From positions 1 to 37,757 of the forward strand of contig JALONU010000006.1 in NCBI GenBank assembly GCA_025454775.1: a stretch of 37,757 nucleotides of DNA, given 5' to 3'. Positions 2,504 to 34,401 of this stretch are shown here, in pieces. A program made the translations under genes and the position numbers. Within the stretch, counting starts at the first letter, position 1. Each line of letters begins with the position of its first letter. A model generated the notes under the pieces. That model saw only the letters and a program-made list of their open reading frames with translations, was not told where the DNA came from and ran no database searches. Source of the DNA: Bacteroidales bacterium (GTDB lineage Bacteria > Bacteroidota > Bacteroidia > Bacteroidales > VadinHA17).

Positions 2504-4660
2504 CTATTCTTCCTCTTCTTCTTCGGTGTATGCCTTGATGACGGCTTCCTGGACGTCGCCGGGAACCTGGGCATACTCCAGGAATTTCATCGTGTACATC
2601 GCACGGCCTCCGGTAATGGAGCTGAGAGCAGTCGAATACTTGTTCATCTCGGCAAGCGGAACCCTGGCCTTGATAACCTCGAACCTCTTTTCACTCGACA
2701 TCCCGAGAACCATTCCCCTGCGTCCCTGAAGGTCGCTTATCACATCACCCATCCTGTCGGAGGGGACCATAATCTCAACTTCATAGACCGGCTCCAGGAT
2801 CTTCGGATTTGCTGTTTTAAATGCCTGGCTGAAGGCATTTCTGCCTGCCAGCCTGAACGATATTTCGTTGGAATCAACAGGGTGCATCTTGCCGTCGTAC
2901 ACATATACCCTGATGTCACGTGCATATGATCCGGTAAGAGGGCCAACCTCCATCTTCTCCATTATCCCCTTGAGAATCGCAGGCATGAACCTTGCATCAA
3001 TGGACCCGCCAACAATGCAATTGCAATAGATGAGCTTGCCTCCCCAGTCGAGTTCAATCTCATCTTTACCCCTTACAGAGATCTTCATCTCTTTGCCACC
3101 GATCTTAAAAGTAGCCATTTCAGCAGATCCTTCTTCGTAAGGTTCTATAATCATGTGTACCTCCCCAAACTGACCGGCACCTCCCGACTGTTTCTTGTGG
3201 CGGTAATCAGCCTGTGCTGACTTGGTGATGGTCTCGCGGTATGGGATCTTTGGAGCATTGAAATTCGTGGGTATCCTGTAGATATTGTCAAGATGCCATT
3301 TCATTATATTAAGGTGATATTCACCCTGGCCATGTACGATTATCTGTTTCAGCTCCTTTGAATACTCTATTATTATCGTGGGATCCTCCAGGTGTATCTT
3401 GTTAAGGGCTTCACCAAGCTTCTCATCATCGCTTTCACTCTGAGCCTTTATGGCTGTCCTGTACTTGGGATCCGGGAATTTCACTCCTTCATACCTCCAG
3501 TCGTTGCCCGGGGCATTCAGGGTATGATCCATCTTGGTGTTCTTCAGTTTTACAAATGCACCAATGTCGCCGGGATACAGCTCCGGAACCCTGGTCCTGT
3601 TCTTCCCGGCACATACGTAAAGCTGGGAAAGCCTTTCCTTGGTGCTGTTGTTGCTGTTGATCACGTCCAGGTTCTCGGTGATCCTGCCGGAGTAAACCCT
3701 GAAATAGTTTATTTCGCCGATGTGTTCCTCAATGGATGACTTGAAAACATACACCGAAGCTGGTCCGCTCGATTCGGGTTTGACCACGTTGCCCTTGCTG
3801 TTCCTGGGGGCAGGCATATCGGTAATTGAAGGAGCTTCGCTGAGGATGAACTCCATCAGGTCGTCGACACCTATGTTCTGTTTTGCCGATATGCAGAAAA
3901 CGGGGTGCATGCCGCGGCTCAGGAGACCTTTGGCAATCCCTTTCCTGATCTCGCTCTCAGTGAGCGTGTTGTTTGCAAAAAACAGCTCCATCAGCGCTTC
4001 ATCGCTCTCTGCGGCCTTCTCCACAAGGGCATTGTGCAGTTCCTCAGCCTTGTCTTTCTGATCAGCAGGGATATCGAGGATCTCTGCTTTTCCTCCGTCC
4101 TTTCCGTAGCGAAGCATCTTCATCTTCAGTACATCGACAACTGCATTGAACCCAACTCCTTCGTTAACAGGATACTGAATGAGGATCATGTCTGTGCTGA
4201 GCCTCTCTTTCATCATTTCCACCGATTTCTCGAAATTGGCTTTTTCATGATCAAGGCCATTCACAGCTATGATTACAGGCTTATTCACCTTCTCTGCATG
4301 CCTGAAGTGAATTTCTGTTCCGACCTCAACTCCGTTCTGGACATTGATGAGCAGCAGGGCGCAGTCTGAAGCATAAAGCGACGAAATAACTCCTCCGCTG
4401 AAGTCATCCAGACCAGGGGTATCAAGAATGTTGATCTTTTTGTTCTGGAACTCGGTGTACATCACCGTGGAGAAGATCGAGTTGCCGTTCTCATGTTCTA
4501 TGGGGCGGTAGTCGGAAACAGTATTTTTCCCTTCGATTGTTCCTCTCCGCTCAATAACACCTCCGTTAAAGAGCATCGCTTCCGCCAGGATCGTTTTCCC
4601 GGAACCTGAATTGCCAAGGAGCACGATGCTCTTTATCTGGTCTGTCTGGTATGTCTTCAT
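2504..4660 (-). CDS. fusA2: Elongation factor G paralog (EF-G2 type)
   Basis: 718 aa with EF-G architecture; P-loop GNSGSGKT, but DTPGLDDF in place of DTPGHVDF and NGLD in place of NKMD. Confidence 0.9.
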   Translation of the reverse strand: MKTYQTDQIKSIVLLGNSGSGKTILAEAMLFNGGVIERRGTIEGKNTVSDYRPIEHENGNSIFSTVMYTEFQNKKINILDTPGLDDFSGGVISSLYASDCALLLINVQNGVEVGTEIHFRHAEKVNKPVIIAVNGLDHEKANFEKSVEMMKERLSTDMILIQYPVNEGVGFNAVVDVLKMKMLRYGKDGGKAEILDIPADQKDKAEELHNALVEKAAESDEALMELFFANNTLTESEIRKGIAKGLLSRGMHPVFCISAKQNIGVDDLMEFILSEAPSITDMPAPRNSKGNVVKPESSGPASVYVFKSSIEEHIGEINYFRVYSGRITENLDVINSNNSTKERLSQLYVCAGKNRTRVPELYPGDIGAFVKLKNTKMDHTLNAPGNDWRYEGVKFPDPKYRTAIKAQSESDDEKLGEALNKIHLEDPTIIIEYSKELKQIIVHGQGEYHLNIMKWHLDNIYRIPTNFNAPKIPYRETITKSAQADYRHKKQSGGAGQFGEVHMIIEPYEEGSAEMATFKIGGKEMKISVRGKDEIELDWGGKLIYCNCIVGGSIDARFMPAILKGIMEKMEVGPLTGSYARDIRVYVYDGKMHPVDSNEISFRLAGRNAFSQAFKTANPKILEPVYEVEIMVPSDRMGDVISDLQGRRGMVLGMSSEKRFEVIKARVPLAEMNKYSTALSSITGGRAMYTMKFLEYAQVPGDVQEAVIKAYTEEEEEE

Positions 4661-6114: not shown

Positions 6115-8217
6115 ATGGATAAGAATCTGAAATATACCAGGAACATCGGGATCATGGCCCACATCGATGCCGGTAAGACCACCACTACAGAACGCATTCT
6201 GTTCTATACCGGTCGTACCCATCGCATGGGTGAGGTCCATGACGGAAATGCCCAGATGGACTGGATGGTTCAGGAACAGGAGAGAGGAATTACAATTACT
6301 TCAGCCGCCACAACTGCCTTCTGGAAATACAATGGTGAGGAATTCAAGATAAACATCATCGATACTCCCGGGCACGTAGACTTTACGGTTGAGGTGGAAA
6401 GATCGCTCAGGATACTCGACGGAGCTGTGGCTGTCTTCTGTGCCGTCGGCGGTGTTGAACCACAGTCGGAAACAGTATGGCGCCAGGCAAACAAATACGG
6501 CGTTCCAAGATTAGCCTTTGTCAATAAAATGGACCGCGCTGGTGCTGACTTTTACAGTGTCGTGCACCAGATAAGGGAGAAGCTCGGCTCAAACCCGGTT
6601 CCCGTACAGATACCGATCGGCGCAGAGGAGAACTTCCTTGGAATGGTCGACCTTATACAGATGAAAGCCATCGTCTACAATGACGATGAGACTCTCGGAA
6701 CAAAATTCGATATACTGGAAGTGCCGGAGGATATGCGTGAGGAAGCAGAGGAATGGAGAGGCAAACTCGTTGAGGCAGTTGCCGAAGTTGATGACACCCT
6801 GCTCGCACGCTATGTCGAAGACCATGAGTCGATAACTCCCGAAGAGATTAAGACAGCCCTCAGAAAAGTTTCAATCGCAGGTCATGCAGTACCGGTGATT
6901 TGCGGAGCTGCCTTCAAGAACAAGGGTATTCAGAACCTTCTCGATGCGGTTATTGAATTCCTTCCATCACCCGTCGACATAGGCGCAGTGACAGGCAGGG
7001 ATCCCAGGACTGATGAGGAAATCACACGCGAACCCGACGATGAAGCTCCCATGGCAGCCCTTGCCTTCAAGATAGCCACCGATCCGTTTGTCGGCAGACT
7101 TGTATATCTCCGTATCTATTCAGGTATTCTTCATGCAGGAGATACTGTCCTGAACGTCAGGACAGGAAAGAGGGAAAGGATAAACCGCCTTTACCAGATG
7201 CATGCCAACAAGCAGAATCCGAGGGAAAGCATCTCTGCCGGCGATATATGCGGAGGGGTCGGCTTCAAGGACCTCAAGACTGGAGATACACTTTGTGCAA
7301 TACACAAGCCCATTGTTCTTGAATCGATGGACTTCCCGGAACCTGTGATCGGAGTGGCAATAGAACCAAGAACACAGGCCGATATAGATAAACTGGGGCT
7401 CGCACTGAACAAGCTTGCCGAGGAGGATCCGACTTTCCAGGTAAAAACTGATCCCGACAGCGGGCAGACTGTGATAAGCGGGATGGGTGAACTTCACCTC
7501 GAGATACTTATCGACAGGCTCAGGAGGGAATTCAATGTGGAATGCAACCAGGGCCCGCCGCAGGTTGCGTACAAGGAGGCCATTACAACTTCTGCCGAAT
7601 TCCGCGAGGTCTTTAAGAAACAGACCGGGGGAAGAGGCAAGTTTGCTGATATTACCGTGGAGCTTTCTCCCGCGGACGAAGGTGTCAGGGGTCTCCAGTT
7701 TGTTAATGAAGTTAAGGGAGGCAATGTACCGAGGGAGTATATCCCTTCAGTAGAGAAGGGTTTCCGCGAATCGATGTCGAACGGACCCCTTGCAGGATTC
7801 CCTGTAGAGAGCTTAAAAGTAATATTAAAAGACGGTTCGTACCATCCGGTTGACTCCGATGCCCTCGCGTTTGAGATTGCTGCCAAGCAGGCATTCAGGC
7901 GTTTTGCAGGTAAATGCAATCCGGTATTGCTGGAGCCCATCATGCTCACGGAAGTAGTTACTCCCGAGGAATATGTGGGTGATGTGATCAGCGATTTCAA
8001 CAGGCGGAGAGGCAAAGTGGAGGGTATGGAATCGAAAGCAGGTGCAAGGGTAATCAGGGCAAAAGTACCGCTGGCAGAAAAATTCGGCTATGTTACCGTA
8101 CTCCGTACCCTTACCTCCGGAAGAGCAACTTCAACCATGGAGTTCTCTCACTACGAGGAGGTGCCTGAAGAAATAGCTAACAGAATTGTCGAAATCACAA
8201 AAGGAAAAATTCTTTAA
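6115..8217 (+). CDS. fusA: Elongation factor G (canonical)
   Basis: [21 protein letters not shown] all intact. Confidence 0.99.
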
Positions 8218-24774: not shown

Positions 24775-24796
24775 GTTATCAACAATTGTTGATAAC
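24775..24796. promoter_or_regulatory. Perfect 22-bp palindrome, candidate regulator site
   Basis: GTTATCAACAATTGTTGATAAC. Confidence 0.5.
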
Positions 24797-24835
24797 TCCT
24801 GTTCATATCGGGTTTACAACAAGGAACACCTTAAA

Positions 24836-24866
24836 TTGCTTTTTAAGGATTCCTGGATTATATTTG
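24836..24866 (+). promoter_or_regulatory. Candidate promoter of the structured RNA
   Basis: TTG (24836-24838), 20-nt spacer, TATATTTG (24859-24866), perfect TAnnTTTG. Confidence 0.55.
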
Positions 24867-25380
24867 ACTTATCGGGTGAGCGATAAAGGGCTGCTCGAAC
24901 GATGTGGAACCGGAAAAGATTACTTAACTGAAATACGATCCGGTTCATTCAGACCTTCGGGTCTGCGCATCAAGAGAGCCGAAGCCTGGACAAAAGGAAC
25001 CTGGTCCCCGACCAGCCCCGGATGTTCAGCAGGTCGCAGAAAACCGGAAACGTTCTTTCAGCGACTGGGTCACAGGGCCTCAGGGAAACAAAGGGCTTCG
25101 GCCCTGAGTGAACTGAAACTGGTGCCGGATCCTCCGGGAAACGGCCACCGGAGCCTGAAGGACACTTCGTCCCGGAAAGTCCCGCCGAAAGACGGGAACA
25201 AAAGGACAGCCGGAAAGACCTGCCATAAAAAGCAGGACTGGAACGCCAGGGGTTGCAAAACCAGATCGTAAGACCTGTAATGCAACCGGCCGGAATAACA
25301 GTAACCCGACGCCGTTAACGGCTTCGGCCGGAAACGGTGAATGGGAACTACTCCTCGCGAATAGTTCCCATTATTGTTTT
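24867..25380 (+). ncRNA. Candidate large structured non-coding RNA, family not recognised; ends approximate
   Basis: Promoter match, cUUCGg tetraloop hairpins at 24950-24965, 25093-25104 and 25319-25330, 9-bp closing helix 24891-24900/25024-25032, further helices, and terminal hairpin with U-rich tail; no plausible protein. Confidence 0.65.
25340..25380 (+). terminator. Intrinsic terminator of the candidate RNA
   Basis: AATGGGAACTA (25340-25350)/TAGTTCCCATT (25362-25372) then ATTGTTTT. Confidence 0.65.
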
Positions 25381-33086: not shown

Positions 33087-34401
33087 ATGGCCTCAAAACC
33101 TGCCATACCAAAAGGAACCCGAGATTTCTCTCCTTCAGAGATGCAGAAGCGCGAATATATTTTCGACACCATACGGAAATTCTTCCGCCTTTATGGTTAT
33201 CAGCCGATAGAAACCCCTGCAATGGAAAACCTTTCCACATTGCTTGGGAAGTATGGGGAAGAAGGAGACAAGCTTATTTTCCGGATACTGAACTCCGGTG
33301 ATTACCTGTCTGGCATTGATGAAGCACTGCTTAATGCCGGGGATTCTCAGAAACTATCTTCCAGGATAAGCGAAAAAGGATTAAGGTACGACCTTACAGT
33401 CCCCTTTGCCAGGTACGTCGTGCAGCATCGTGATGAAATAAACTTTCCGTTCAAAAGATACCAGATCCAGCCTGTCTGGCGTGCCGACAGGCCGCAGAAA
33501 GGAAGGTACAGGGAATTCTTCCAGTGCGATGCAGACGTCATCGGCAGCAATTCACTGGATCAGCATCAGGATAAATAACAGGAAGGTCCTGGCTGGTATC
33601 GCTGAATACCTTGGAGAAGGCTCCAGGATAACAGATATTACCGTGGCCGTTGATAAGCTCGAAAAAATTGGAATTGAAGGAGTAAATGAAGAACTCAGGA
33701 CGAAGGGTGTTTCTGATGAAGCTGTAAGAAAGCTCCTTCCCGTCCTTGAACTGAAAGGCACTGCCTCCGCGAAACTAAGCCGCCTGGAAGAGCTCTTTTC
33801 AGGATCAGAAGCCGGAAAGAAAGGTGTTGAAGAGCTGAAGACTCTTATTTCCTATATTGAAACTGGACCCCTTTCGTGTGTTGCTGAACTGGACCTTACG
33901 CTTGCCAGAGGGCTTAACTACTACACAGGGGCCATCATAGAGGTAAAGGCAGCCGACGTGGCCATTGGGAGCATCTGCGGCGGTGGACGCTACGATGACC
34001 TGACAGGAATATTCGGATTGCCCGGGGTATCAGGTGTCGGGGTTTCATTCGGAGCCGACAGGATTTACGATGTCATGGAACAGCTCGGTCTTTTCGGTGA
34101 GATATCAGTATGCCCCGCTGAGATTATGATAGTTAATTTTGGCGATCCGGGGCTGGGATTTGCTATCGGTATCCTCGACCTGCTGAGGAAAAAGGGTGTC
34201 AGGGCTGAGCTTTATCCTGATCCTGTAAAGCTGAAAAAGCAGATGTCATATGCCGATACCATGAAGATACCTTATATTATAATTGCAGGAGAGGAGGAGA
34301 TGGGCAAAGGTGAGCTCACTCTTAAATCGATGTCCACCGGTGAACAGAGGAGGATCAGGGCTGAGGAACTGGAGTCACTTCTCCCTTTGGCCGGGATTTA
34401 G
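33087..34401 (+). pseudogene. hisS: Histidyl-tRNA synthetase interrupted by internal deletion/frameshift (ORFs 33087-33578 and 33481-34401)
   Basis: N part through [19 protein letters not shown] then DQHQDK*; homology resumes in the +1 frame at [19 protein letters not shown]. Confidence 0.85.

Follow-up and report, generated by a model that had tools for sequence, protein, structure and literature searches.

Few bacterial RNA families exceed 300 nucleotides (nt). Among the large RNAs of elaborate structure are OLE (ornate large extremophilic RNA), ROOL and GOLLD, whose functions are still poorly understood, and a ROOL representative, env-120, measures 659 nt (PMC12286853). Here we analyse a 37,757-nt stretch of the genome of an uncultured Bacteroidales bacterium (contig JALONU010000006.1 of assembly GCA_025454775.1, positions 1 to 37,757; hereafter the window), in which an original prediction, made from the letters alone, had placed a large structured RNA. 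We found that a large RNA gene of ~510 nt sits between eno and ubiD on the + strand (24867-25380), where it is single copy in this genome, and that it belongs to a new family spanning dozens of families of a major order. The reading that we consider probable is that these are structured noncoding RNAs (ncRNAs) of Bacteroidales, large and independently transcribed, which form a family not catalogued before and act in trans as folded molecules, with scaffolding of a ribonucleoprotein or an RNA-only assembly as their most likely role.

Among 59 genomes of the genus, a blastn comparison of relatives recovered a match in 54, with complete copies 72-90% identical, and nothing real outside the genus at that sensitivity. 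Eno and a ubiD-family gene flank the locus across the genus wherever the contig is long enough, one of the two flanks being undetected or cut off at some loci. The copies differ by whole segments: two of them (L057 and L058) lack most of 24986-25159, in a third (L056) the central domain is incomplete, and a fourth (L053) bears an insertion of ~280 nt. Judged from these sequences, the deletions and the insertion are those of a modular RNA. Blastn matches in two genomes of other families (G080 and G084) did not lie at true copies, the place in G084 being read as chance; covariance models later located copies elsewhere in both.

A consensus structure was obtained from an alignment of the 49 complete genus homologs, to which the pairing results refer unless 110 members are named. 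It comprises 138 pairs, with standard pairs in 95.2% of cells, and 68 of these pairs show two-sided change, amounting to 395 compensatory cells. By comparison, 200 control alignments, generated by simulating the same substitutions along the tree, gave on average 88.5% standard pairs, 30 pairs with such change and 70 ± 14 compensatory cells (maxima 90.6%, 38 and 103). Controls in which partners were slid by 1-3 columns gave at most 37 pairs and 59-94 compensatory cells; as the structure was taken from the same alignment as the test, it has an advantage over its slid versions, the margin still being large. Generic all-against-all covariation screens with a tree-simulated null, which are underpowered over ~190,000 column pairs, each singled out two or three pairs, and we regard the test of the named structure as decisive.

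Two helices join the ends of the RNA in the consensus fold, P1 (24872-24877/25304-25309) and P2 (24889-24892/25288-25291), and the irregular loop that separates them has near-invariant strands. Across 110 members, 545 of 550 cells are paired over five pairs of P1, and at four of these five two to four standard pair types occur. Concerning the strand, the folding energy of 24867-25380 is low with respect to dinucleotide shuffles (z = -6.3), but its reverse complement also folds at z = -5.8, so that energy alone is not decisive and leaves the strand unfixed. The + strand is assigned because of the promoter, because of the way the terminator tail points, and because G-U cells outnumber A-C cells in conserved pairs by 557 to 102. 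The gene and its parts are laid out as follows, in window coordinates:

24775-24796, no strand assigned: perfect 22-bp palindrome GTTATCAACAATTGTTGATAAC upstream of the promoter, from the upstream alignment.
24836-24838, + strand: -33 element TTG of a Bacteroidota-type promoter, read in the sequence, with a 20-nt spacer to the -7 element.
24859-24866, + strand: -7 element TATATTTG (TAnnTTTG), read in the sequence and kept in the genus and in other families.
24870-25380, + strand: structured RNA gene, its start estimated 4-7 nt past the -7 element and its end being the terminator tail; based on homologs, covariation and covariance models.
24872-24877, + strand: 5' strand of P1, at 100% pairing across the genus and with compensatory changes.
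24878-24888, + strand: 5' strand of the core, GAGCGAUAAAG (consensus GUGAGNGAUAAAAGG), which lines the irregular internal loop on one side and is near-invariant in 110 members.
24889-24892, + strand: 5' strand of P2, every pair 100% standard, with two-sided changes.
24893-24979, + strand: 5' domain with helices 24893-24896/24976-24979, 24901-24906/24966-24971 and 24907-24914/24939-24946 and a UUCG-type hairpin (24950-24965), from covariation.
24981-25168, + strand: central domain, closed by helix 24981-24984/25165-25168, from covariation; mostly missing in L057 and L058.
Within the central domain, + strand: helices 24986-24991/25024-25029, 25032-25036/25062-25066, 25069-25071/25161-25163 and 25075-25078/25153-25156 and a UUCG hairpin (25093-25104), from covariation.
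25169-25207, + strand: stem 25169-25172/25204-25207, carrying the distal helix 25180-25184/25193-25197, where internal covariation is strongest (79 two-sided cells).
25209-25246, + strand: hairpin 25216-25223/25232-25239, closed by 25209-25210/25245-25246, from the consensus fold of the genus alignment.
25251-25287, + strand: hairpin 25251-25256/25282-25287 with a variable loop, from covariation.
25288-25309, + strand: 3' strand of P2, 3' core strand AAUAACAGUA (25294-25303) and 3' strand of P1, the core near-invariant and P1 covarying.
25310-25339, + strand: 3' hairpin with a UUCG-type loop (CUUCGG in the window; CUACGG, CCUCGG and others elsewhere), from covariation and distant loci.
25340-25380, + strand: intrinsic terminator, hairpin 25340-25372 with T-rich tail ATTGTTTT, read in the sequence, its pairing kept in the genus.

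The palindrome opens a block upstream of the promoter that is conserved in the genus (24775-24821, consisting of GTTATYAACAATTGTTRATAAC followed by TGTTnATATCnnGTTTACAACAA at 24797-24821), and it is the sole such site in the genome at up to three mismatches. From its sequence it is a probable operator, and the block as a whole resembles inverted DnaA boxes or an operator; a replication origin was considered and rejected, as the GC skew keeps its sign there. The core strands 24878-24888 (GAUAAAAGG) and 25294-25303 (AUAACAG) recall segments of domain V of 23S rRNA that lie close together, possibly by coincidence.

The promoter had been predicted with exactly these elements, and the three cUUCGg hairpins (24950-24965, 25093-25104 and 25319-25330), the terminal hairpin followed by its T-rich tail, and all other complementary segments listed at the time are indeed present. 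The homologs sort these segments. Support was obtained for GAACCGG/CCGGTTC, for the first two UUCG hairpins, for GGTTGCA/TGCAACC and for the terminator stem, and in part for GTCGC/GCGAC and CCTGC/GCAGG; the third UUCG hairpin is well paired, its variation being mostly one-sided. A 9-bp helix (24891-24900/25024-25032), CTGGT/ACCAG (25001-25015) and CTGG-AACG-CCAG (25238-25249) are not conserved, and the proposed multibranch domain was wrong in detail, the overall closure being formed by P1 and P2, which had been missed. The broader claim of a large, independently transcribed ncRNA is supported by covarying homologs, by a promoter and a terminator kept across families and by the lack of a conserved reading frame, which together point to transcription from its own promoter to its own terminator. 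The search for homologs and covariation that had been proposed as a check found both, with strongly covarying helices. Overall, the observation is confirmed and its interpretation supported.

Two models extended the comparison beyond the genus. R1 (190 positions, from 25152-25345) has matches in other families at E values of 1e-40 to 1e-11, displaying the same two cores, promoter and terminal hairpins. At E<=0.001, R2 (107 positions, built from 34 diverse 3' ends) matches 111 genomes of the 395 sampled in the order; at E<=4e-8 it matches about 89 of them, which represent about 34 families. A sample of the phylum yielded convincing members in f129 only, which belongs to another order of the same class, sensitivity outside the order being limited. 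Weak R2 matches at the phylum level outside the order and f129 (L168-L183) lack the 5' core and the promoter and were discarded as look-alike terminator hairpins, and a match in G205 was dropped on the same grounds. The 5' core and the promoter, which lie outside R2, are present in the order-level loci fetched from the R2 search, as well as in 19 of 20 separately fetched places and in a tandem copy in G214; this check is independent of R2, though some of the order-level loci come from genomes also used to build it.

Members have in common a TTG/TAnnTTTG promoter (TTG found 17-24 nt upstream in 86 of 110), the 5' core GGUGAGCGAUAAAAGG, the 3' core AAUAACAGUAACYUGRC, P1, the 3' hairpin, and the terminator, whose hairpin is matched in 108 of 110. 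Their lengths are 313-649 nt, with a median of 499 in a sample weighted towards the window's genus, and internal domains come and go. Named genome contigs contain a strict motif in 42 stretches, their titles being those of Bacteroidales or Bacteroidota, and the named carriers include Sunxiuqinia dokdonensis DH1, 'Bacteroidales bacterium 6E', Mariniphaga and other Prolixibacteraceae. These data suggest a widespread cellular RNA of Bacteroidales, of which ~110 members are offered here for structure determination, together with named carriers in which a transcript and a phenotype may be sought.

Some genomes have two copies, several of them in tandem (G214, G130, G096, G327). The tandem or near-tandem duplicates (L233, L115, L118, L110) are 484 bp apart in G214, 1.5 kb in both G130 and G096, and 0.7 kb in G327; the copies of G096 are nearly identical and those of G327 divergent. 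The f129 homologs (L215, L216 and L217, in G562, G646 and G526, respectively; ~610 nt) have a repeated module, GGCAC-AAAGG-hairpin-GARACGG(N3)ACCGCAGAA-GUGC, with four modules spaced ~108 nt apart in each of G646 and G526, and three modules in G562.

Membership in a known family was judged by whether a covariance-model score reached the curated cut-off, over families including OLE, ROOL, GOLLD, HEARO, 6S, RNase P, tmRNA, introns and Bacteroidota motifs. As the original prediction had it, no known family emerged: Rfam 15 models do not match the window, where E<=10 gives chance-level matches only, none passes the cut-off at 20 distant loci, and at 13 further loci there is solely a thiamine pyrophosphate (TPP) riboswitch elsewhere on the contig. 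Absence from Rfam means that Rfam-based annotation would leave the gene as blank intergenic sequence. We found no description of the family in the literature searched, an unpublished, differently named or supplement-only report being possible. A TPP riboswitch lies on the same contig as one distant homolog (L116; 3171-3267, - strand).

Neighbouring genes vary by family. They include phosphoglucomutase with a radical SAM (CofH/MqnC-like) enzyme, an SSF symporter, YicC and MatE, ArgRS, CheW/CheB, phosphoribulokinase/uridine kinase, a hexapeptide transferase and an endonuclease/phosphatase, a carboxyl transferase, and RelA/SpoT, and the downstream gene is convergent at several loci (L108, L109, L110, L116). 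No match was found in viral contigs, phages or plasmids, the phage and plasmid searches being by blastn, which would miss distant members. Elsewhere in the window, which contains no tRNA, a gene resembling histidyl-tRNA synthetase is broken into two overlapping frames (33087-33578 and 33481-34401), which suggests a frameshift or an assembly error, and a second EF-G-like gene lies at 2504-4660 on the - strand, the other being at 6115-8217.

Such varying and convergent neighbours exclude a leader as a general role and argue for action in trans. A leader or riboswitch that acts in cis on ubiD or on another downstream gene, ended by an attenuator, would fit the position of the RNA directly upstream of ubiD and on the same strand in the window and throughout the genus, but this proposal is largely refuted and we hold it to be highly improbable: in other families the downstream gene is different and often convergent, with no conserved association as a 5' untranslated region, the length of the RNA is far above usual riboswitch size, and no obvious anti-terminator competes with its conserved terminator hairpin. 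A degenerate protein-coding gene, corresponding to a 161-aa open reading frame at 24786-25271, is refuted beyond reasonable doubt, as those 161 codons are open in the window's genome alone, the frame is intact in no other homolog, 31 of the 49 differing in length by amounts not divisible by three, and substitutions follow base pairs.

It seems unlikely that the RNA is a trans regulator of RNA polymerase or of mRNAs, that is, a large 6S-like or sponge RNA with AAUAACAGUAA or GAGCGAUAAAAGG as effector strand. Two invariant segments could act as seeds, six genomes carrying the large RNA have no RF00013 6S match, and ten genomes searched with RF01685 (6S-Flavo) gave just two sub-threshold matches; however, the Rfam 6S model also has no match in a control Bacteroides genome, so that this absence says little. 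6S RNA is a single bulged hairpin of ~180 nt, against which stands the closed multi-domain fold found here. Moreover, the invariant strands face one another within P1/P2 rather than being exposed, and a simple sponge would not be expected to have extensive domains of variable size. Less likely still appears a ribozyme or other catalytic RNA, in which, by analogy with RNase P or group I/II introns, an irregular core would be closed by helices and stabilised by a periphery. The near-invariant internal loop, the variable periphery and the UNCG-type capped hairpins do resemble large ribozymes, but no intron or ribozyme family of Rfam matches, the genome's RNase P RNA lies elsewhere (G000:C196), and tmRNA lies elsewhere in sister genomes that also carry the large RNA (e.g. 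G001, G011, G030); both identities are rejected for the locus.

We therefore return to the reading of a trans-acting scaffold. Sequence comparison provides the gene boundaries, the structure, the conservation and the independence from neighbours, and from these we infer transcription, action in trans, and a core serving as a binding or catalytic site. The RNA would be transcribed from its own Bacteroidota-type promoter and end at its own intrinsic terminator; P1 and P2 bring its ends together around the near-invariant irregular internal loop, with GUGAGNGAUAAA facing AAUAACNGUAR. This loop may be the functional core, where binding or catalysis would take place, with lineage-specific modules inserted between its strands, and the folded RNA would act in trans as the scaffold of a ribonucleoprotein or RNA-only assembly. 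Some points weigh against this. Five of the 59 genus genomes have no blastn match, among which R2 adds one weak match (G020, E = 0.004), and two genomes rated 98-100% complete, G020 and G041, have no clear copy; the RNA may thus be dispensable, unless these are assembly gaps. Moreover, trans action and scaffolding are proposed by exclusion and analogy.

How does this family compare with described systems? Like the Bacteroidota motifs that Weinberg et al. described in 2010, Bacteroidales-1 among them (PMC2864571; RF01692-RF01694, RF01705), it is lineage-restricted and structured and came to light through comparative genomics, but the Rfam models of those motifs do not match it, Bacteroides-2, listed in that paper with no Rfam number, being left out of the comparison. 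Like 6S and 6S-Flavo (RF00013, RF01685), it appears to be independently transcribed, mostly single-copy and housekeeping-like, whereas 6S is a short bulged hairpin and the Bacteroidales RNA is multi-domain and closed by P1/P2, with neither a single bulged-hairpin fold nor a match to either model at the locus, though it might be a functional analogue. With ROOL and GOLLD it shares a large ornate structure of similar size, conserved and variable parts, and a poorly understood function; these are, however, encoded in phages and prophages, while the Bacteroidales RNA is a chromosomal intergenic gene with housekeeping neighbours, and phages, plasmids and viral contigs gave no match. OLE is similarly chromosomal, several hundred nt long, elaborately covarying, and not phage-linked in the genomes examined; unlike OLE, the Bacteroidales RNA has no Rfam 15 match, occurs in a different phylum, and has no fixed partner gene beside it.

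By its size (313-649 nt) and elaborate covarying structure (138 pairs, 68 compensatory), the RNA falls alongside OLE, ROOL and GOLLD. We tentatively entertain the possibility that it represents a new class among the large ornate RNAs, widespread in Bacteroidales, in which an RNA-based machine or a homo-oligomeric assembly is formed on the P1/P2 core and extended by lineage-specific modules (up to four tandem ~108-nt repeats in one outside family). What is new here is the RNA family; its working may resemble that of a known ornate RNA.
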